Positions 7,293 through 26,303 of a stretch of 64,000 nucleotides of DNA are shown piece after piece (position 1 is the first letter of the stretch; each line of letters opens with the position of its first letter). Both the position numbers and the translations under genes were made by a program. The stretch is from Utricularia gibba (taxonomy: Eukaryota > Streptophyta > Magnoliopsida > Lamiales > Lentibulariaceae), in contig CM007989.1 of the NCBI GenBank assembly GCA_002189035.1, positions 3,968,001 through 4,032,000 on the forward strand, read 5' to 3'. Below the pieces are notes generated by a model, which saw only the letters and a list, made by a program, of their open reading frames with translations, was not told the DNA's origin and did no database searches.

Positions 7293-8666
7293 ATGAAGCG
7301 AGTGCTTGTTGTGGGCGGCACCGGTTACTTGGGTCAGCATCTTTTGACGTCTTTCGCCGATGTGGATTCAGATTCAACAACCCGGCGCTTGCTTTCACGT
7401 ATCATTCCTCGCCTCCAACACCCGCGCTTCTCAACGCCATCCCCAAGGCTCTCCCTTTTCACGTTGATCTTCGCACTGGCAATGGCCTTGACGCAGTGTC
7501 AGCCTCCTTCGGTCAGGTATCATCATTTGCCTTCTTGTCAATGGGTGTTCACATCACATGGCTGTCTTATTGTAGTCCATAATCGATCTAGCGCACCAAA
7601 TGCTCGTGCTTGTGATCTTGTGTTTCAGCCTGATGTGGTGATCAATTGTGCTGCTGTCTCGGTTCCTCGTGTGTGTGAGATAGATCCAGATGCTGCTATG
7701 TTGATAAATGTCCCGATTGCTCTTGTGAAATGGTTATCAAGCTTTAGAGGAAGTAACACCCTTTTGATTCATCTGTCCAGTGATCAAGGTTTGTGTTCCC
7801 TCTTGCTTGTTTCTCCATAATCCTTCGACTTCAAAGTTTGGTGCCTGTGCTCTTCAGTTTATGAGGGGACCAAGTCCTTCTACAAGGAAGAGGATGAAAC
7901 TGTCCCCGTGAATATTTATGGCAAATCAAAAGTTGAAGCTGAGCATTACATACCTGCAAACTGGTCCAACTATGCAATTCTGAGAAGCAGCATAATCTAC
8001 GGCCCACAAACCATCTCTCCAGTTCCTAAGCAGCTTCCAATCCAGGTATCTTACGCAGTGAAACCTCTTAGGCCGAACTTCTGTTCACTTCAGCTTGAAC
8101 TGCTCTTAAGATTGGCTGTCTTGTTAAAAACCGCAGTGGATAGATAATGTCCTTGCGAAAGGGGAGCCATTGGATTTCTTTCATGACGAGTATCGCTGCC
8201 CTGTTTTTGTCAAGGATGTTGTTCTTGTCATACAGTGTTTGGCAAACAAATGGCTCTCAGGTAAGGACGCTCCGGGAATTTCTTACACTCTTGTGCTAGT
8301 AACTGCTGGTTTCTCTGCAGATGGTGAGCAACTGCAGTTGCTTCTAAACGTCGGCGGGCCAGATAGAGTGTCACGGGTTCAAATGGCCGAGGCTGTCGCA
8401 CAAGTTAGAGGTTACAAGCGATCCCTGATCAAATCGGTGTCTGCTGCTTCAGTATGTTCCAACACATCACTTTAGTTCACAGGCAGTTTCTTCTCTGATA
8501 ACTTGAGGGAAGACTTGAACATGTTCAGGTTGATCGTGGCGTGAGGTCGCCTCCCGATATTTCCATGGATACCAGGAAGCTCATTCAGACTACAGGCATT
8601 CATCCAACTTGCTTTGCAGAAGGCGTGAGAGTCACCCTCCAAGGGGAAGGTGCAGCTGACTTGTAG
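7293..8666 (+). CDS. SDR/RmlD-like NAD(P)-binding reductase, frameshifted in exon 1
   Basis: Six exons: 7293-7516, 7629-7788, 7858-8045, 8137-8260, 8321-8451, 8529-8666. The product resembles plant RmlD-like Rossmann proteins (Arabidopsis At4g00560, related to the regulatory beta subunit of methionine adenosyltransferase). Visible motifs are the nucleotide loop GGTGYLGQH at the N terminus, the YGKSK catalytic Tyr/Lys motif, FFHDEYRCP and NVGGPDRVSR. The start ATG at 7293 opens the Rossmann motif directly. In exon 1 the frame changes near 7380: the N terminus reads in one frame and the homologous ALAFTYHSS segment in another. One base is missing, most simply in the CCC run at 7381-7383. With that base the protein would be about 321 residues and all later junctions agree. 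This is either a sequence error or a disabling mutation. The exact substrate is unknown. Confidence 0.85.
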
Positions 8667-11566: not shown

Positions 11567-14500
11567 TCAGACAAAGGACCAGTTAACAAAGGAGAAGGCG
11601 AGGCAGTGCACATCGCTCTCTTCCTCTGCGAAGACTTTCCAGATCTCGGCGCGTTCGTAGGACGCATTCCGGCCCATCGTCGACGTGCAGACGCCGCCGG
11701 GCAACTGTGCGAAACCCTGCAACAAGATGGTGAATTAGTATCAGAACCCAGAGTAGGTGTGTTCAAGTGCGGCGTACATTTCGCATGATCTTGGAGAACT
11801 CGGCGAACAAGGCCCTCCGCCCAGAATCGTCGAATATCTTGTCTATCATTATGCCCTGCAGCGCCAGAAGCGCTGTCTCCAGCATGTCGAGCCCGGACTG
11901 GTTCGCGAATGTGAAAACGGGCACCGCCTAGGGAAACGCCAGAGTCTCAGAGATGATGAAGTTGAAACATGAAATTGGAGATTCGGGGAAGGATGTGTTC
12001 TGCACCTTCAACGAGCAGCAGAGGATGGCGTTCCGTTGTCGCCAGAGCGCTTTCAGAACTGCATCGTCGATGGGGCTACCGGGATCGGCTCCTAGAAGCT
12101 CCCCTCCCGTGTGGTAGCTAACAACGACGCAGAGAAAAATCAGAAAGAGAACACCTTTGCTCGTTACTGGGCATGGCAGTCAGTACCTGTAGCTCCGGCA
12201 GAGCCAATGAGCGAGTGTGAGGGCTTCTGGGGAGGCTGAACCAAGCTTCGATCCCACCGCAGGGGACGCCGGAGATATTGCCATTGCCACTCTCTGCACA
12301 GGGGACATCACATTCCGAACGTACTGTCTCGCCATTGCAGCTACATTTTCCAGTAAACTACTCTCAAACGGGAACTGGAATGCGATTATCAGTATGGACC
12401 GGGAACCCTGCGGGGAAGATGACCCTCTGCAGCTGCTGCTCGTGGCTGCCCCTGCTTCAAGACTTGGCGCCAGGTCTAATGCTTTGCACGAAGGAGACGA
12501 GTCCTGGTAACCCAAAGAAAATGCAAGATCAGTCACCCAAAAACATGAACTACAGAAGGCAAGAGCTGTGATGGGAACTGAACTGGCTTCCGATCGAGTG
12601 AGATTACACGAAAGCCACATGGGAGCAGGACTGAGAAGTCAGGAAACGTTTCAAGGATCGGAGCATACACGAGCTCAGCACAGGCTCCAACTGCTTCGTC
12701 ATCGATTCCACTGCACATCTGAATATGTAGAAGAGCTCATTACAGTAGATACCCTCCACGGATTTCATGGCATAACCCACCAAGCTAGCAAACTACGCAC
12801 CTGTAGGAGATGGATGCCCTTTGATACGAATGCATCCTCATGGTCGAGAAAATGCACTTCCAGCCGAACGATTTCAAGTATCTGAAACACGACGGAGCTT
12901 CGGCGAAAAATTGGGACATGGCGAAACTTCAGATGTACACCAAACACAGAAGCCATGGAAATCTACCTCTTCATGTTCAATTGTCTGAACAAGCTGCATT
13001 GTAGTGTGGCTTCCAGTAAACTCAGTCGTCCTCAACCCCAGATCCATATATGTGTTTTTCAAGGCAGAAGAAATATATGCATCCACGCTGAAGTCAGCCC
13101 ACTCAGATCGGTGCTCCCTCAAGAACTGGACCAGCATTCCTGGATGGACATTCTGCGTAAACACGAGAAAAAAAAAATAAAGAGCAGATTCACAGAATAA
13201 CAATGGAACATGAGATGTGATACCTGAAGCAGCATAGAGGCTTTTGCACAGAGAACACTACTGGTAACTGGAGGGTTGCTTGCACCGGCTATTGGATTCC
13301 GGAGCGTACCGATGGCAACTATTATATCTTCATTGCCATCACATTTCATTATGGACCAACCATCATCGTTAAAACCATTTACAGCATCATTAAACCCTCT
13401 ACAAAAGTTAGCACGTAAATGATGAAGCCATTAGAAACATGGGCCGGCCAACTGATCAGAAGATAACATTGAAGAAGTGAGTACCTGCTTAACATCTGGC
13501 TGAAAGTTCTTAGGACACCAGGCTGCCGACCGAGGCCGTACGCCACCTCGCCGCTCGTTTCTTGGGCAAGTTGCTGTATATATTTCAAAGCCTAACAAGT
13601 GCAATGCAAGTCAGAGTTTCAATCTTCCACATTAAGGATTGAATTTACTTCAACATGTAAGACACATTCATACTAACCGCAAGTGTAGTTTTTTGAGCCA
13701 AGAAGCTTCAAGATTCATATAGAGGTCGCAGCACCTCCGGAACACTCCATGGCTTGAAAAGGTTGGATAGAAGCTCATCGAAGTGAATATTTCAAAGGGA
13801 GTCAAGAATCAAGACAAATACCTCAAGGTTATAGTGATCAACAATGTGAATGATGGATCCCCCACCTTCACATGGTCGGATCAGACACCCAGAGGGAAGC
13901 ATTTCACCTCTCACAAACTGTAAAGCTGAACCTCCATTCGGACCAGCCCCGGTACCGGAGAGAGATCGTTCACATACCTTTTAGGACAAAATAAATTGCA
14001 TTGAAACTTTACATGTCAAGTTCATATTTTGACCACCAAGTGGAAGAGGGTTGAATTTGGAAGATGAACTTACCACAAGACTTCCATTGTCTAAGGTGGT
14101 GGTGTATCTCAAGGTCCAGAAATCACGAGCCGGGACCAACGTTGTTGGGGCATATGTCTAGCAGAATAAACGGTGACCTTGAATCCAATCCACTGGCTCA
14201 CCAGTAAGCAACAAAAAAACATTCTAAGTGTATAACCTGTATATACAACAGTTCAATTGTTCCTCCGTTTCCAGATGGAAACATAGTGAAGATCTCAACA
14301 CTCCGACATTCACGATACCAGGACATACGATCCTTAAGACTCTCCAAGATCTGTTCAGGTTAGGAGACTTCACAATCATCAAAATAGTACAGGAAACAGG
14401 TTAATGGTAAAATACTAATATTTTGTTGAACCTTGGTAGGCTCTAAGCTGATAAGACTGCACACTCGAGCTGCCACTCCATTACATGATTTTGAGATGGC

Positions 14501-15641
14501 AAAGATCCCATCTGAACCCGGACCAGGCTGTGATGAAATGAAAAACACCATCACTTTCAAATAGAGTGAGTAAAATAACATTCAAACCCAGTATTGGCTA
14601 TAAAAGCACAACCTTCATCCCAGGCATCTGCACCCAATCAATAGCTGTTCCTGTGGCCTTTTCCAGGAAATCTGCCAGGGTCCCCTCGGCAATAGAAAGA
14701 AGTCTGCAAACCAAAAATCATAGCAAATCAGCTGGCCTTCAACGAGAAAAGAACTAGACTGATTTTTTGAACTAACGGATGCATAAGTCCATGAAATTTC
14801 AACAAGCAATAATCATACCCAGCAGGGTTGCGCGAGCCTGGGAGGGAATGTTTTGGGGTTGTGACTGCAGACTCGGAACTCGCATCTCCGATGGGTCCAG
14901 TGGCCTGAAAATGCTAGCAAAAATGAAGTGCATTTTGAAGGAAATCGTACTGGTAAGCTAACAAAGAAAAGCAAACCAATAAGAACACACACGTATCTTC
15001 CTCCAAAATTATCAACTTGATAATTCAACCACTAAACAAAAAGCAGCCAATATTTTCCAGGCAACAATTAACATTGGATGTGGTGAAGGAGAATAATACG
15101 GTCTGCAGTTGCTGCCGCATAAATCCATTCTCGCAAACTAGCTGCGAAACCTGCTTCTGTAAGCGGTCATTTTCCTCCATCAGTAATTTGTTCATGGCAG
15201 TTAATTTTCTATTTACACCCTGAAGTCTGATAGCTTCTTTTCTCTGCTTCTCCCGACACCTACATTTGTATAGAAACAGTGATCACCAGCTCGCAATCAA
15301 TCTAAGTTCAAATGCAAGTGTTGATGAGCAACTCAGTTAAAAATTGTAGCTGTTGTTGCCAAGATATACGACAGAAAAGGATAAAAATGGGAACTTTCCA
15401 AGCACCTGCGGTTTTGAAACCAGATTTTGATCTGCTTAGGTTCAATATTTGCAAGAATTGGGCATTCACGAATAAGCTGCTGGCGGCGGTGAGAACTGGG
15501 CTTTGGGCACTCGGCGTAAACTCTCTCCAAAGTTTCCACCTGTTCAGCCGTGTACCGGACATACTTGCCGCCGTCAAGATGTTTATCGATGGTCCCACCA
15601 TTTCCACTTCCGTCCCTGTGCTGCGGAGCCACCATGGCCAT
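11567..15641 (-). CDS. REV: HD-ZIP III transcription factor, REVOLUTA-like, with in-frame TGA at codon 356
   Basis: Eighteen minus-strand exons join in frame: 15406-15641, 15100-15259, 14819-14904, 14613-14703, 14432-14527, 14237-14350, 14074-14157, 13822-13977, 13678-13752, 13485-13591, 13224-13398, 12967-13152, 12801-12881, 12584-12718 (donor uncertain, 12554 possible), 12187-12503, 12006-12117, 11778-11927, 11567-11716. The full frame is about 836 residues, normal for the family: homeodomain (about 24-84, WFQNRR), leucine zipper (to about 130), START, SAD, and a MEKHLA C terminus ending FSFVNWSFV. The miR165/166 site is present. In exon 9 the codon after YES is TGA (13708-13710), where homologues have Ser. 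Read literally, the product stops at residue 355 inside START. Several normally constant residues also differ. HD-ZIP III factors set leaf polarity, meristem and vascular fate. It is either a decaying copy, a truncated-product gene, or a one-base sequence error. Synteny supports REVOLUTA. Confidence 0.9.
14518..14623 (-). promoter_or_regulatory. miR165/166 target site split by intron 4
   Basis: On the minus strand, exon 4 ends CTGGGATGAAG (14613-14623) and exon 5 starts CCTGGTCCGG (14518-14527). Spliced together they give the canonical 21-nt HD-ZIP III complement to miR165/166, encoding PGMKPGP in the START domain. The site exists only in spliced mRNA. Cleavage here is well established for the family. 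Its preservation despite the downstream nonsense codon means the transcript would still be microRNA-controlled. Confidence 0.9.
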
Positions 15642-16555
15642 CTTCCCACAACTTCAAGAATTTTTTTTTTTCCGAAATAGAACTAAAGAAAGCACACAAT
15701 GAAGCAGAATATTCAACGGATGTTACGGTCTACTGACAACAATTCCCTGAAGCAACAGATACTGTAGGAGCTTATTTGATTGGAGGTTGTGGTTGAATGC
15801 GTATTTCAAACAGCGAAAGTAGCTCAATGAAAGCTAGGAAGCTTTGCATGCAAACATCATATGCACAAAGACAAAATGACACTTGCTCCTTTTTCTCCTT
15901 CTATCTTCCCTTTTCTACAAAATGGACCACCTTTGAGTATCCGTCAAGGGAAATCGGCAATACTTCTGTCGCTCCAAAAGGCTCAAATGGCATCCCAAGG
16001 AGAGGCAAAAAAATCAACCACGCAAAAGGCCCCGAATTTCCAAAAAGCGACTAATTTTTACTTCCCCCTCAGACTCAAAGCTAGTATGAGCTCTGACCCA
16101 ACAGCACATTCTGGCTGTAACAGTTGCCTAAGACTTCAAATCCCTGCTTCTCTCCAAAGGATGAGAAGAAAATTCTTTGAACAAAAGGGAAAAGTTTATG
16201 AGAAAGAAAAGTGTTCAGCAACAGAAGAAGAATCCTTGAAGATCTGGGCAAACGGGAACGCAACCCTTGAGCAGAAACGACTCCAGGGAGAAAAAGCTCT
16301 GGTTCTCAAACTAAAAAGATATGCTTTTGTAATCAATCTGCATGTAGGAGCACCTAAGAAACTAGAAAGACAGCACCAACGCAACACGAGAGACGAAAAC
16401 GATGGGTGTCTAAACAGCCACATATAAAAAATTACATATAGCATGAGTAATTTTTTTCACAACATAGGTATTTTCCAAAATCAATCGTTGAAGCCTTTAT
16501 ATTTATTTTAACTTCTGGACAGGCTGCTGCCGCACCAGCCACTGTGGCTAAACAG
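15642..16555 (-). other. Upstream region and probable leader of HD-ZIP III gene
   Basis: HD-ZIP III genes usually have long leaders with introns. This stretch has moderate AT content, small open frames on both strands (for example 15861-16427 on plus, 188 codons, no recognised product) and A/T-rich ends. No separate gene is supported. The plus-strand open frame has an unusual Lys-rich composition and looks like chance coding over purine-rich leader sequence. Confidence 0.35.
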
Positions 16556-16565
16556 ACTCCGGTCA

Positions 16566-17537
16566 GTCCAGTTAATTTGATAAATGGTCATCTCTTTTCA
16601 TTTAAATTTGAGACATAACATCTCTCAAAATTTTTTTGCAATTTGGCCATATAAAAAATGATACATTAAAAGAAAATCATTATTCATTTAAATACACTGA
16701 TATGCCAGTGTATATACATGGTATATTGAATTTTTTTAATTATCTATTTTCAAAGAAAACCTAATTTCGTTGATTAATATATATAATTACATATTATTGT
16801 ATATAATAGTATAAAATATATAAAAATAACAAATGAATTGTTAAATAATTTACAAATACAAAAAAATAATAACACCCTATTATAGTTAATTATATATAAA
16901 CAGTTGTATAATTAAATTATTAGTGATATTTTACATACTATGTTGAAACTGTAAAACTCTTCTGAATTATAATGATTCTTGAAGAGTGCAGAATGGAGAT
17001 ACTGCACAACTCTTCCAGATCACTGCATTTCCGAAAGTGTGTGGGATACAATTAATTCGAAAACCAAAATTGGCGAAAAATACCTTGATTTTTTTCTTGA
17101 CCATTTATTTTATATAAAAAATGAATTTAATCTTTGATATGTAAATTATGTATATATATTTATATAATTTAATTATGTAATTATTTACACTAATAATTTA
17201 ATTATATAAATGTTTACGTATAATTAACTATAATAGGGTGTTATTATTTTTTTTGTATTTGTAAATTATTTAACAATTCATTTGTTATTGTTGCATATTT
17301 TGTAATATTATATACAATACTATGTAATTACATATATTAATCAACGAAATTAAGTTTTATTTGAAAATAGACAATTAAAAAAAATCAGTATATTATGTAA
17401 TGTCAGTGTATTTGAATGAAAAATGATTTTCTTTTAATATGTCATTTTCGAGATGACCAAATTGAAAAGAGTTTTTGAGAGAATACCATATCTCAAATTT
17501 TAATGGAGAGAGATGGGCATTTATCAAATTGACCTAA
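16566..17537. mobile_element. Long foldback element (giant MITE)
   Basis: Two arms of about 350-370 bp are inverted copies of each other: roughly 16566-16935 and 17187-17537. Matching landmarks include TTTGATAAATG at the outer ends, TTAAAAGAAAATCATT, AATTTCGTTGATTAATATAT and AACACCCTATTATAGTTAAT nearer the centre. The central 250 bp are unique and contain no ORF. Length and full-arm symmetry fit a foldback transposon or a large MITE of uncertain superfamily. Such a hairpin could produce small RNAs if transcribed. Exact ends and target duplication could not be fixed by eye. Confidence 0.7.
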
Positions 17538-17731
17538 ACTCCAGCCTACCCCCATCTCCTCCATCTCCTCCATCTCTCTCACCCCTCATTCCCTACACTC
17601 CTCCACTCATCATTAAATGCTGGCCACCTCTTCGGTAAATTTAAATCACATTCCACACTAAAGAAGAAAGATTAAAACTTTACAGGCTGATGAAGATGAA
17701 GCTTAGACCAACCGAACAAAGCATTTCCATA

Positions 17732-17740
17732 GATTGTCGT
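17732..17740. repeat. MULE target-site duplication, left copy
   Basis: GATTGTCGT directly precedes the left inverted end and recurs exactly at 23463-23471 beyond the right end. Nine bases is the standard duplication length for Mutator-like elements. Confidence 0.85.
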
Positions 17741-17824
17741 CAAAAAATTAACATAAATAATATTGATTAATAAATACAATATATTAATAATAATATACAC
17801 GAGTAGTAGTGGTGCTTTATCTAT

Positions 17825-17978
17825 CACACCATTATTGATGGCGAATCGTATGCTAAAGAACGTCATCATTGATGATGCCTCTAAGTGCATACACCATAGC
17901 ACCATCATTGATGGCGCTTTGCTGTGTGCCACCATCAATGATGGCGCCTTGCAGCAAGGCGCCATTAATGATGGTGCC
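17825..17978. repeat. Left subterminal repeat cluster of the MULE
   Basis: At least five copies of a roughly 20-bp quasi-palindrome of the type GGCACCATCAATGATGGCGC lie near 17825, 17861, 17899, 17928 and 17958, in both orientations with 10-16 bp between most of them. Each copy is nearly its own reverse complement. Subterminal repeats of this sort often bind transposase; that role is inferred. Confidence 0.75.
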
Positions 17979-18434
17979 TAGGTGCTCTCAATGGTAGGAG
18001 CCCATGCTCCCCTTCCATTCGCTAGCCACGCTCACTTGTCCTATTACTACATTCTACTTATAAATACCTTGAGCGTTCTTCATATCCTATAAGTGTAAAT
18101 TGTGATTAAAAAACATTTTGATTACAAGGGTAAGACTATGAATTTTTTATATATTCGTAAGTTTTTATATTTTAATTTTTTTATTGCAGTAAAACAATCA
18201 AGTTAGTTATTTAATTTTTTTTATTGTTTGATTAATTATTTTCTTTATTAATTTGTCATGGTTTTTTTATTACATATATGATATTTATTAATTTGTTTTA
18301 AATTTTTTTGTACATTGACATAAGATTTATTTTTATGAATAATATGTTTTTATTATTGTTTTATTAAAAAATAATATATTTAATTTATTATATTAATTCT
18401 TGTCAAATATGTAATATTTTTTTTGTAGATTGAC

Positions 18435-20475
18435 ATGTCGTCACATTTAAGAGTTCATGGTCCTGAGGATCCGAGCCTATTGGATATGCAACAATAGCAC
18501 ATTACTTATGGTCTATTACAGGGATCAGACCGTAAAACGATGCAATTCAAACACATCTACAAATTCTTGGCAGGCAGATCATGGGAGGAGAGGACTGCAA
18601 GATATCTCGATGATTGGGGTTTTTATGGAGTTCTTAAGACATTACGAATGGAACCATACCTCAATTTACTCACAGCTTTAGTTGAAAGATGGCGTCAAGA
18701 GACGCACACCTTCTTACCATGTGGAGAGGCGACGATCACTCTCCAAGATGTTTCTATGATGTGGCGTCTTCGTATTGATGGTATACCGATGGTTCGCACT
18801 CGCACAAAACGCACAACACAGCAATGGCGTGAACTATGTGTCGAACAGTTTGGATGGGAGCCTGAGGAGACCTTCATTGTTGGTGATTCACAATTCATTA
18901 TAATTGGCCTTCAGACATACATTGATGATACATACATTGGTATCACAGTGGAGACTCCTGAGGAGTAAGTTGTACGTTTTGCTCGTGCGGTGGTACTATT
19001 AGTCTGTTGCAGGGTTTTTTCCAGGATGCCACCGATAACCGTGCCAAGTTAAGTGTCCTTGATTGGATAGTAAATCAAGATCGCTGGTTGACTACTAGTT
19101 GGGGGACAGCTATCCTAGCGAATTTGTATCGCGAGCTTGATTTGTGTGCGCTTAGGCGAGTTACAATGGGTGGTGCCTATCGTCTTCTTAAGGTTCAATT
19201 TCTTGATTTCCCGACTAGTATTATATACGTTAAAATTTATCATATTATAATTTTTTTTATGCAACTGTGGGCATATACTCGGATCTCATCTCTACGTCTT
19301 ATACTGAAATGTCATTTCCCACATGATGTATATTGGGAGGGCGAGGGGTTTAAACCGTCCGTGTATGATTACAGGTTTGAAGGTTGGCTCGACCACTCAA
19401 ATGTGGTCTCCCACAAATTAGAGCCAATCTGTGACACATGTGATTTGGTTTGCGGGGATGACGAGGTACATTGTTTTCATATAAATTTATTTTTCGTTGA
19501 ACCGTGGATATTGTCATGACACACATTTCATTGTTTCTTGGATAGTTTGAGTGGACTCCTTACGAGGATATACATTTACTGTGTGTTCCGGAATGTGATC
19601 GTATGCTTTGGCAGTATGCCGGTCCGATGATATATGCATCTCGAGTGGATCCCCATTGCCCTGATCGAGTGTCTCTTCAGTTTGGATGTAGCTGTGTTAT
19701 TCCACTCCCTCCAGATCAATATCCTGTAGAACATAAGTTTACCAGAGACTTCTACGATACTGATTGGACGTTGGAGCATGTTGCACGTATAGCTTTGTGA
19801 GCATCTAGGCACACTCACATTCTCCAGATGCATGACATCCCTACAATGTCTGAAGCGGCGTACATGACTTGGTATAGGTCGCGCACATTGTTGTATCTTG
19901 GAAGAAGACGAGAGAAGGGTGATGGATATCGAGGTGGAAATGCAGAGCCGATAGCTTATGCAGTAAAATAATCATTTTTACAAATATGAGTTAGATCGTG
20001 TAAACTTATTTCTGATATCTTGTTTGTTTTTCAGGTTGCACAACTTGATAGATTTCGTGTTGGGAATCAAGAAGCAGCGTTGGCATATGAAGGTCTTAGC
20101 CAGCAGCTTGGATGGAGTCAATCACTCGTGGCACATCACTCACCGCTACCTAGTGATGATGACACTGCATAGGTCCACATGAACCAAGCATACGAGGATT
20201 TCAATGCAGAGTTGTTTTAGCAGTGTGCGGCACCAACGAGTAGACCATCAACATGCGAGGCTCCTTCTTCCTATGTGCGATCACCACTCTTGGCCATGAC
20301 TCCGTCATATCCTTGGCCGCCTTCTTACCCGAAGTTCATGATGTCCCATGCAAGATCGAGCCAATCTAGTGCTGGGAGGGGACATGGTTATTGGAGATTC
20401 TCATGTGGACCACCATATAGTGGTCCACATGATGCGACATGTCCATCATCATCACGGCAGCGTAGTCATGAATAG
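18435..20475 (+). pseudogene. Plant mobile domain (PMD/MAIN-like) gene, decayed
   Basis: Reading from ATG 18435, the frames encode PMD-type sequence: WRQETHTFLPCGEATITLQD, a segment with WRLRIDG and WEPEETF, then LDWIVNQDRWLTTSWGTAIL, a WAYTRISSLR segment and an FEWTPYED block, ending in a low-complexity tail. PMD (DUF1985-like aminotransferase-like) proteins occur in MULEs and in host MAIN/MAIL genes linked to silencing and genome stability. Lesions: TAG at 18495-18497, TAA at 18966-18968, a frameshift near 19010 and TGA at 19798-19800, with further stops in the tail. Likely introns are about 19195-19265, 19465-19545 and 19965-20035. A short intron removing 18963-19010 is possible but would delete conserved residues. 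Judged a pseudogene. Confidence 0.7.
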
Positions 20476-20569
20476 ATGTGTTTTGTTGTTATCGAATAAG
20501 CTATTTTTATGAAAGTAGTTTGAAAACAACTATAAATAAAATATCCAAAATAAATAACTCCAACTAGCA

Positions 20570-23110
20570 ATTAATCAAAGTTCAAACCAGAAAAACCCAA
20601 ATTTATCAGACAATTCTACTGGTGGTGGATTCAGTCCCCGATCCATCTCGTTGTGTATTCTTGAGCGACGCTATCTGTCAACAATAGTCCGATGGCGTGT
20701 AGGATCATGGTATAGGGTCCAGCCCGAGTAAGGGACATAGGTATCAGAGTCAAGAGGGTTGAAAACCTCTTCACTATATGTTTGTCACAATGCATGCAAT
20801 ACATCAAGACTAATCATGAGATCGTTGGCACTTACCTTCACCTTTTCAGCAGTTGCAACAACATGAGAGCATGGAACACCATACTTACTCCACTTTTCGC
20901 AACTACAAGTTTGATCACAAAGCATCACTCTATAACGATAGCGTCTCCCTTTCCCACGGTTGACGACTTCAATCTAAAATGACATATTCGCCGTCTCGAA
21001 TTGACGCACCTTATGTGTCTTAGCTCTCTCACGTGCTCTATCCCAAAAACGTTTTGCCTCATCTGAGAGCACCTGCATACACAGATAACAAGTGTTATAC
21101 ATAAAGTAAAATAATAAAACATTAAAAATACTCGAAATTAAGTAACTTCAAACATAATTCCTGGTGGTTTTCTGTCATCGAGGTGATCTCCTCTTTACGC
21201 TCGTGGAGGATGGTAGCTGACTTGTACAACGTAGTCTCAACAATTGTATTTGAGGGAAACCGACGGCAAACCTTGAGAACGTTGTTCATGATCTCTGTTG
21301 CATTAGAAGTTAGATTCCCGTAGCGTCTGCCTGAATCATATGAGAGTGCTCATCTCTCATATGGACCATTTTCTGGCTCAAAGAACCATGCATAAGCCAT
21401 CGGATTTTTCTTTTGAATCCTTTCGAGGTATATCATCATCTTTCTTGGATCACATGTTGCTCCGGCGTTGTAAGCCATTTGCTTAAGTATTTTGCTTCCA
21501 AACTTCTAGTTGAAGTTGGAAACATAATGACACAAACACCAAAAGTGGGCCAGACGGCCTTCTTGAAACCCAGCGTAATTCCTCACAGCTACAAGCATGC
21601 ATGCAGCTTTGTCCGAGATTATACTACCTTGGCCTCTACAAAAAAAATGCTCATCTAGCAAATCAATAAACCAAAGATATGCATCTGTACTCTCCTCATC
21701 GACGAATGCATAGGCTAACGGTAGGATATGACTACCTCGATCCTTGGTAGTGGCCATGAGCAACTTGTGGTCATAACGTCCATATAAAAAGGTGACATCG
21801 ACCATAACAACAGGCCTACAATACTTGAATGCTCGAATAAATGGACCATAGGCCCAAAAAACATAGTGCATGATTTTATGATCCTCTCCTGCAATAGTTG
21901 GAAAGCAATCTCACGAGACCATTGTACCCAGAGTGGCTTGCGTGATTGCCAGAAATAATGCGGGTAGCTTTTGCACTGATGATTCCCATGTTCTATAGAC
22001 CAACTCAAAAGCAAGTTGAGCACCGTACCATGCACGTTCATAAGTAATCTTCTTTTGATATTTTTCAAAAATACATTTTCGAGCATTTGCAACTTTAATC
22101 TCTACAAAAAAGAAAAGTTATTAAAAATATAAAATATGTTAAAAAAATTAAGAAATATTTAAACTATACCTCCTTCTTTATGTGCAGTATGCATAAATTC
22201 ATATCCAATGAATAATCTAGAAAGGTTGCGATGTTGTGCTCCATCCATATATGCCATACAAGTATGTGGAAAGTCACACATCGATACTTGCCAAACTCCA
22301 TCATGTGCAGATCGCATAATCCTTATGCGCCAATAACACTTAGGATCCATGTTAGCACGAGCGCATTCGCCCTCCCAAAATGTGGGTTGACTAACAGGAA
22401 CGATGAATTCATATCCTCGTTTTATATGATAATGGGCAACACAATATTGTGAATGAACTTTACTAGTAAATGCAATTCCCTTATTCAGCACATGTACCTT
22501 CTCATCGTATCATCTATATTTGCCACCATATTTAAATTCTTCGGATACGAAAGTGTTTACTGGATTGTTTTGGATAGAGGGTATTCCCCCCTCACGAAAC
22601 ACCCCAGAGAATCTTCGAGAGCGAGATCCAGGCAATTGTACTGCACGAGGTGCCTCAATTCCGGTCTCTAGTGCTTAGTCCTCACAAACATTTGCTGGTG
22701 GGGCTTCAGAATCGATGTCTCCACCGTCATCATCAAGGTCAACCATATCTTAAAAAAACAATTAATGATAATAATTTTATATATTAATACTTAATCTCAC
22801 TAAAATTACCTTCTATGGGGAATTCTTCAGCCACGTTCACACTTGGATTGTTATCATGGATTAAAGATAATGATAATTGAAGACTCGAAGATACACCTAC
22901 AATACAATTAATTATTACAAATATAAAAAAATGGATGTCTTAACATGTATAATAAAATAAGTACCTCCATAATTGACATTTGGCATATTGGTGCAAGGCT
23001 ATGAAGGAGTATGCGAACTTTCACCCTCATTGTAGGGCAAATTGAATGACATTCCCAAAAAATCAAAAAAATCGCTAGTGTATTTATCAATTCTGAAATG
23101 AGAAAATAAA
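20570..23110 (-). pseudogene. MURA-type (MULE) transposase, decayed
   Basis: Minus-strand frames in order: an acidic N terminus (about 23110-22500), a MuDR DNA-binding region (22160-22491, with PTFWEGECARA and WQVSMCDFPHTC), the MULE transposase core (from 22100 down to 21160, with CRPVVMVDVTFLYGRY, LPLAYAFVDEE and IISDKAAC), then a SWIM zinc finger after an intron (about 21080-20820, CSCEKW...GVPCSHVVA) and a C-terminal tail. These are the standard domains that bind MULE ends and carry DDE catalysis. Internal stops in the conserved frame lie at 22999, 21911, 21506, 21350, 20974, 20785 and 20671, so a full transposase cannot be made. Frame is otherwise largely kept, suggesting decay by point changes. 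The usual IDGTHLYG motif reads VDVTFLYG. Confidence 0.8.
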
Positions 23111-23290
23111 TATATGTAATCAATTATTATGAAATATAAAAATTTAAATAAATAATACTATAAAATGAAAAAACAATATTATCAAAATTTTCTTCAACTC
23201 TGATTCTACTCAACTTTGAAGATGAATGAAAAAAATTATGAAGATGTGAGATATATATAAAAGGAGAAGTATGAGTTTAGTAGATCTAAA

Positions 23291-23368
23291 GCACCATCAA
23301 GTATGGTGCCTTATCTAAGGCGCCATCATTGACGGAGTCTTCCCTAAGGCACCATCAATGATGGCGCC
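23291..23368. repeat. Right subterminal repeat cluster of the MULE
   Basis: Three copies of the same quasi-palindrome as on the left lie at about 23291-23310, 23319-23339 and 23348-23368. The last reads GGCACCATCAATGATGGC, identical in its core to left copies. Confidence 0.75.
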
Positions 23369-23462
23369 ACTCATTGTAGATATCAAAGCGTCACTACTAG
23401 TTGTGTATAACATTATTAATATAATGATTTTAGTGAATAATATTATTTATATTATTTTTTCA

Positions 23463-23471
23463 GATTGTCGT
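23463..23471. repeat. MULE target-site duplication, right copy
   Basis: GATTGTCGT, identical to 17732-17740, directly follows the right inverted end. Confidence 0.85.
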
Positions 23472-26303
23472 ACCCTTGAGCCTGTCAAATCACATTCACG
23501 CCCCTTCCCCACACCACATGATCCATCATTACAGCTTTCCTTTCGACTAATCAACCAAAACAAACTTTGTTGAAAACTTTTGCATCTTCCACACACATCT
23601 TTTGGATGCCTTTTTTCTTTCCTCGAAACAAGTCTGCATCTAAAGTATAGCAGTATTTTGAAATCAACAGAATTCACAATAACACTCATCATAACAACAA
23701 ATGCAAGAATGATGAGTCAATCAGGACAAGACCATTGATGAGGCAGGCACACCCACATACGACCCAAGGCAACAAAAACAAACAAGCGCCTCACTCTGAC
23801 TCCTTGGGGGCTCGCAACAATTACCTGACAAAAACAGCAATGCAATATATTCACTTACTCCATCTCCCATGTCTAAACATTGTAGATGTTTTTCCTATTA
23901 AATTTTTTATTCTATGAAAGAATTAAAATCGCAATTTATCCATGGTCATTAATAAATATTTTATTTTTGTTTTCATTAACTTATTTTAGAAAAATAAAAA
24001 AATTAATAATTTATATTAACCCCGATATGAATGTAAATTTTTTCTTTAGAACTTTGAATTATATGATTTTATAATTTAATTCATTTATCTAATCATCTTT
24101 TTGTTCAATGTTTAACAGGAATTAATTTTTTTAAGTTCAATTTATTTTGATTTATGACATGTGATTATATACATTATTTTATTATATTATTAATTTAATT
24201 TGTATTTAATAATTACAATACCCAAATGGGTGTCTTTCCAAATACCCCTACTCCCATATTACACTTATATCACAGTTTGAGAAAAATAACACATTTAATT
24301 CATTTATTCTTTTTTTATTTTTTTTAAAAAACAATAATATAGATAAATGTATTAGAAATGTGATCATTCTTTTTTTTTTTACCGTGTGAGAAAATTTGGT
24401 TATCCTCAATTAAAAAAATTTTGATTTAATGTAAAAGAGAGCAGGAGTATGACTGCAAATAGGGGTAGGAGGATTTGTAGTTGGTCAAAATCAATTAAAA
24501 TTTATTGTTGCATTTTAAATTATGATTTTAGTTGAGAATTAGATTTGAGTCAACGAATCTCATGAAATGAATCTATTAAATTAAAATGATTAAACTCGAT
24601 TTCACTCATTGCAAAAAAATATTAAATCTAGATTCATGATTAAATTAAAAAATGGTGGAATTATTTTTAAAACACCAGTCAATAGAAGGTTGTACCAATA
24701 ATGGGAATTGAGACTCGCTTCAAATGCTTGTACCTTCCACCCAACACTTGCCCCCTATCAGTGAGGAATCCCCATCGCATTGAAGGAGCCGTACGGTTGA
24801 GGTATCCCATTTCATTGGCTTCTCCGAGTTGTACCCTGAGAAATTCTTTCACAATTCCATGTCTGGTCGCTTTCAGGCGTTTGATTTGGGGGGCAAGAGG
24901 GTCATTAAATTTGCTCCCTTTTCATGGAAATAGGGCAGGGGCATAATTGTCTTGCCACAACTTTAATTATTACATGACTGCAAAACCCCCCTAAAACAAC
25001 CTTTTGTCCCCACAATAAACACTTCGAAGGAAAAACAGTAAATCAACCCCGACCCCACATTCGTGGTCTTCACCAAACGGGTTTCTTTCACAAAAGAAAA
25101 AAAAAGCAAGGAGATGGCGAACCGGACCGGTTTTTAATTCAATTGCATTCTAACCTAATTGTGTGTGATTAATTGACGAGTCGAATCGATTAACCGGTAG
25201 TTGAGATTTTATATTGTATCGATTCGATTCGTTAATCAAGAATGGTTCGATTTTTTTCTTTTACAATACACAATTTAGTTAAAAAATATTAATAATAACA
25301 ATACATATATTGATTTTTGAAACACCCCTTTCACATGTCTAAATTGGATTTCATACCATACTTTATACCATCAATTTGATGTCAGAACAGGGGAATGGCT
25401 ATGGACAAACAAAATGACTTTCATATGCATAACATTCAACTTATTTGTTTGAAATAACTCCTTTTTATAAAAAAGAATACTTTATGTTGTCAAATATGAA
25501 ATGATTTCTATTTTTGAAAAGAATAGAAATTTAGAAATATATTTGTATTTATTAAAATAAAAACTATAAATTTTAATTTTTTTCATTAAAATTGATTAAC
25601 TAAACTTTTTTAACTATAATTGTCATTAAAAATAACTGCACCACCATTTATATTCACTTTTTTTTCATTCTTGATTTTACATTGATTTGTTGTGTCTAGA
25701 AGTTGATCTAATGTCATCCAACTTCCCTCCATCACCAACCCTTTGACTTTGTGCCTCATTCTTGAAGAGATGGGATGAGAGTGAATGCTTTGATCCCAAA
25801 AGCTCACATGTTACAATTTGTGTACCTCTTGGTTCATTTTCCATCCCATTGTATATAGTATGGCTATCGAAATAAGACTTAGAAATGCTTCTAGAAAAAG
25901 TAACTTGCCCACTAGATGAACTGATTCTCAAGTGACAAAAGATAAGGACAAGTATAAAGATAAAGTAAGAGGGAAAGTTTTTTATCTTTTTAAGGAGAAA
26001 AGAAAACTAAAAAGGCAGAGCAACTTTAGGAGTATGGTGGTTAGCTTTACTTGATGCTCACACTTGTATACAAGGGCTCAATAGGGAGTACTTGACTTTT
26101 CGGTGTACATGGAAGGGATGGGGTTTTTACAGAGTGCTCTGTGAAATCTTAAATCTACACTCTTTCATAATATATACTTTCAAAACTTCAGGGTGCATCA
26201 TCCATATCATAGGTGGAATATTTTTTTTATAAAAATTCTAAATTTTTGTCTATTCTAACATTTTTTATGGAACACGATAAAGAAGAATATCAATAATTGA
26301 TTT
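23472..26303. other. AT-rich spacer with isolated open frames
   Basis: Mostly AT-rich DNA without recognisable genes. A less AT-rich patch at 24690-24950 has an 81-codon plus frame (24701-24946) of no known family. A minus-strand frame of 84 codons at 25677-25931 has Ser-rich, codon-like sequence but also no recognised family; it could be a small gene or a remnant. No RNA gene is seen. Confidence 0.4.
25677..25931 (-). CDS. Hypothetical 84-residue protein
   Basis: A minus-strand ATG-to-TAA frame of 84 codons begins MRISSSSGQVTFSR and is rich in Ser, Lys and Arg. It has no signal peptide, membrane segment or motif I recognise. The surrounding DNA is AT-rich while this frame is somewhat less so. 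It may be one exon of a larger gene, a relic, or chance. Confidence 0.2.
   Translation of the reverse strand: MRISSSSGQVTFSRSISKSYFDSHTIYNGMENEPRGTQIVTCELLGSKHSLSSHLFKNEAQSQRVGDGGKLDDIRSTSRHNKSM

Follow-up and report, generated by a model that had tools for sequence, protein, structure and literature searches.

The REV-type gene and its upstream region

The window, a stretch of 64,000 nucleotides of the Utricularia gibba genome (contig CM007989.1), carries on its minus strand a class III HD-ZIP gene of the REVOLUTA (REV) type. The features discussed below are listed here, with C412 and C505 denoting two related gene copies elsewhere in the genome:

10989-11210, minus strand: small ubiquitin-like (UBL5-type) gene, downstream of the REV-type gene
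11567-15641, minus strand: class III HD-ZIP (REV-type) gene, from a spliced model with GT-AG introns and Pfam domains
11567-13591, minus strand: exons 10-18, after the stop, with the START tail, the SAD region and MEKHLA; under purifying selection as a branch average
13678-13752, minus strand: exon 9, 75 nt, codons 342-366, both ends between codons
13708-13710, minus strand: in-frame TGA, codon 356 of the spliced model, serine in six paralogues
13822-15641, minus strand: exons 1-8, before the stop, with the homeodomain, the leucine zipper and most of START
14432-14703, minus strand: exons 4-5, with the miR165/166 target site at their junction
16571-17533, no strand assigned: fold-back element with arms of about 370 bp that are 85% identical, absent from C412
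17731-17740, plus strand: left copy of the target site duplication AGATTGTCGT; right copy at 23462-23471
17742-23460, no strand assigned: Mutator-like element with inverted terminal repeats and PMD and MULE open reading frames, between the 5' leader and the conserved block
23462-23543, minus strand: conserved upstream block, common to C412 and partly to C505

The gene model was rebuilt exon by exon from 15641 to 11567. Its 18 exons, separated by introns that all run GT...AG, join in one unbroken frame of 2511 nt (837 codons including the terminal stop), and its only stops are codon 356 and the terminal codon, 837; chance could not plausibly give so long an open frame interrupted once. Pfam matches cover the homeodomain (PF00046, residues 26-84, E 1.4e-16), START (PF01852, residues 166-355, model positions 3-188 of 207, ended by the stop) and a full-length MEKHLA domain (PF08670) lying wholly downstream of the stop codon, while the leucine zipper that follows the homeodomain was read from the sequence and carries no score. 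At the exon 4/5 junction lies an intact miR165/166 site, CTGGGATGAAGCCTGGTCCGG, with zero mismatches to the usual target sequence. The gene is a class III HD-ZIP gene, and both the family and the 18 exons without a frame break, as proposed by an initial sequence-only reading, are borne out by the model and the domain matches. With REVOLUTA-type genes it shares the homeodomain, zipper, START, MEKHLA, exon number and intact miR165/166 site; unlike them, it is interrupted by a single nonsense codon towards the end of START, and a Mutator-like element divides its upstream region.

Alignment to the leader of C412 covers positions 15763-16534 of the window and resumes only at 23462. Because transposon sequence of about 6.9 kb (16535-23461) fills the space between, the window copy has lost its close link to the conserved upstream block. 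The open reading frames of the Mutator-like element encode a plant mobile domain (PMD) and a MULE transposase. The duplication AGATTGTCGT is a perfect one of 10 bp with just two occurrences in the whole window, and C412 presents an empty site with one slightly different copy of it.

The TGA codon in exon 9

Positions 13708-13710 are TCA on the plus strand; the sense (minus) strand runs TAT GAA TCT TGA AGC, with the TGA in frame in the spliced coding sequence. Across the site the window has TCT TGA AGC TTC TTG GCT, C412 has TCT TCA ACT TTC TTG GCT and C505 has TCA TCA AAG TTC TTG GCT. Serine occupies the TGA column in all six other HD-ZIP III genes (C412, C505, C213, C3, C413 and C414), encoded by TCA in both C412 and C505. 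Given that exon 9 aligns over its 75 nt without gaps to these two closest copies in a codon alignment, we read the TGA as a substitution rather than a frame break; the simplest account of the alignment is that it arose by one C-to-G change, TCA to TGA. Thus the in-frame stop, the serine in homologues and the single change anticipated by the sequence-only reading all reappear in the comparison. Compensating indels were rejected as the simplest origin, C412 and C505 being gapless on both flanks; a lost base with a gained base nearby is formally possible.

Codon 357 is unusual as well, AGC against ACT in C412 or AAG in C505, which makes three changes in five bases. The sequence GAAGCTTC is an 8-base palindrome, perhaps a weak hint of a small template-switch mutation. 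The stop does lie within START, as first described, close to its end (188 of 207 model positions are kept) and not in its middle, and the predicted product would indeed lack SAD and MEKHLA. Stop-codon readthrough is disfavoured, as the stop is conserved in no copy and the base that follows is A. RNA editing was set aside as a rescue, since C-to-U editing is unable to remove UGA.

Related copies, coding selection and base quality

The genome examined (100.09 Mb in 516 contigs) contains six HD-ZIP III genes beside the one in the window. A tree built from these seven proteins alone joins the window gene to C412 (83% identity) and then to C505 (73%), with the remaining four in a group of their own; the first three may constitute the REVOLUTA clade. 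The sister gene on C412 (minus strand, L017 1888-6025) is syntenic with the window gene. The ubiquitin-like gene lies beside it in the same place and encodes a 96% identical protein, and because this neighbour is common to both, the two copies must have arisen by segment duplication. C412 is without precisely intron 7, its exons 7 and 8 being fused into 240 nt in frame. C505 yields a complete gene model with no lesion and is an intact third REV-type copy. At exon 17 of the HD-ZIP III gene on C213 (L019) the donor is seemingly GC, not GT (CAGCAG followed by GCAATG). Given these two further REV-type genes, the stop does not imply that REV is lost altogether, and REV-type function is probably present elsewhere in the genome. 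The sequence-only reading had called a full loss notable unless another copy exists, and had suggested a genome search for a second REV copy with serine at this codon; C412 and C505 are two such copies.

Selection was estimated with a three-sequence codon model (window, C412 and C505; own script) that leaves out the two C412 codons spanning its frame breaks. The branch omegas, which are averages over time, are 0.28 for the window copy, 0.13 for C412 and 0.18 for C505. Those of the window copy and C412 differ (likelihood-ratio 6.5, 1 df, P about 0.01), the window copy being about twice as loosely constrained as its sister. Coding selection has not been lost as it would be in a pseudogene: omega is 0.28 and neutrality (omega = 1) is rejected on the window branch, with a likelihood-ratio of 20.6 and a cost of 10.3 log-likelihood units. 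For the post-stop codons alone, neutrality on this branch costs 4.9 log-likelihood units, and these codons are under purifying selection, averaged over the branch. As they are still constrained, the stop is recent, unreal or without consequence. When the last part of the window branch is modelled as neutral, the likelihood is highest with a neutral share of zero, and the upper bound at roughly 95% (about 2 log units) is about 0.19 of the branch if the whole gene is neutral and about 0.3 if only the post-stop part is; any loss is therefore young.

How far the individual base can be trusted depends on the assembly, which a review lists as PacBio HGAP (PMC5793159). Single-base deletions, mostly beside homopolymers, are found in exons 3 and 17 of C412, exons 6 and 15 of C414 (L020), exon 6 of C413 (L022) and exon 15 of C3 (L021); given that it is not credible that most genes of the family are dead, we read these as long-read assembly errors. 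HSP70 and GRAS genes show frame breaks that leave no room for an intron. Within the window, an RmlD/epimerase-like gene (7293-8666, plus strand) has a one-base frame break near 7380, at AACAACCCGGCG, of the same type as the other frame errors in the assembly. Four flagged stops among the GRAS and KCS matches each resolved into a frame break, an insertion or a 5' boundary instead of a clean nonsense change, and substitution-type stops therefore look rare in this assembly. The full-length matches among GRAS, KCS and HSP70 genes, about 45 kb in total and a set chosen for intactness, contain no internal stop. A 31 kb contig (C241) overlaps C304:2234323-2237722 over about 3.4 kb of near-identical sequence with one indel and zero substitutions; a base-error rate from this overlap was dropped, as it is too small and possibly not independent. 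The repeat, which is either redundant assembly or a recent duplication, includes an HSP70 gene with a frame break.

Origin and consequence of the stop

A question follows, is the stop a property of the plant or of the assembly? On balance, and with limited confidence, we favour a real and recent nonsense mutation, Ser356 to stop, that would constitute a null allele of a redundant REV-type copy. The serine at this column in all six paralogues and the gapless alignment with the two closest argue for a real stop, and the looser omega than in the sister, together with the Mutator-like insertion splitting the upstream region, argues for a decaying duplicate. Against a real stop counts that the assembly clearly carries base-level errors, and that frame, splice sites and selection look functional, as they would under an artefact too. 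A base error in the assembly, the true codon being serine and the gene intact, is accordingly a serious alternative, though to our minds a less probable one. It fits the deletions near homopolymers in C412, C414, C413 and C3, the frame breaks in the HSP70, GRAS and RmlD-like genes, and the remainder of the window gene, intact and under selection; it is also conceivable that the clustered changes at codons 356-357 reflect local consensus trouble. Yet all other identified errors are deletions or frame breaks and none is a substitution, which lowers the odds of a substitution error at the TGA, and the gapless codon and the GRAS, KCS and HSP70 matches free of internal stops, albeit chosen for intactness, weigh in the same direction. 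Because several sister genes show single-base frame errors, claims of gene loss made from this assembly need read checks.

If the mutation is real, a segmental or whole-genome duplication would have given rise to the window copy and its sister C412, and the former would have become dispensable, as C412 and the older REV-type copy C505 remain. Constraint on the window copy would then have loosened, transposons would have parted it from the conserved upstream block, and the change from TCA to TGA would have turned it into a null allele. A stop this early, with nine exon junctions after it, is a classic trigger of nonsense-mediated decay, and the transcript would be removed in this way, with little or no protein made. 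The data show the codon itself, the paralogues, branch-averaged purifying selection, constraint looser than in the sister, and the insertion; we infer that the base is real, that events took this order, that the transcript is lost to decay and that function is covered by the other copies.

That the stop is bypassed or its product used appears improbable, whether through skipping of exon 9, which would remove 25 START residues, or through a 355-residue HD-ZIP fragment that interferes in the manner of LITTLE ZIPPER (ZPR) proteins. Skipping would keep the frame because exon 9, which starts and ends between codons, consists of whole codons, and the post-stop codons are still constrained; however, the splice sites and length of exon 9 are kept in the compared copies, and the START segment that would go is conserved. 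Any protein made would, from the predicted coding sequence, keep the homeodomain, the zipper and most of START. Truncated zipper proteins (ZPR) inhibit REV, and such zipper-containing relatives could in principle sequester full-length partners (PMC3794426), as might the window fragment; ZPRs are without a homeodomain, whereas the window product would keep it, and its transcript is expected to decay. Negative regulation of REV has been reported for its MEKHLA region (PMC4496561; PMC3794426). The idea of an active or interfering fragment, though conceivable, lacks support. Many exon junctions lie well downstream of the stop, which makes decay the expected fate, and as the stop occurs in none of the paralogues, nothing points to its having been selected. 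The interfering form raised by the sequence-only reading found no support and is unlikely, because the transcript, on general knowledge of stops followed by nine exon junctions, should undergo nonsense-mediated decay. More improbable still is a real stop in a gene whose 355-residue HD-ZIP-START fragment would be expressed from a transposon-altered promoter and would tune the activity of the remaining HD-ZIP III proteins during the patterning of leaves or traps.

The favoured reading, a null allele of a redundant copy, resembles known nonsense null alleles and duplicates decaying after whole-genome duplication in its single disabling change, redundant copy, intact frame and looser constraint. 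Compared with typical cases the window gene would be very early in this course, having no second coding lesion and an uneroded signal of selection. We found no papers on U. gibba REV genes with sequence detail; in this species trap formation is reportedly directed by PHV, a relative within the HD-ZIP III family (PMC8792892). The finding is modest and fairly ordinary. If the stop is real, a patterning gene would have been caught at the onset of its loss after duplication in the carnivorous Utricularia gibba.
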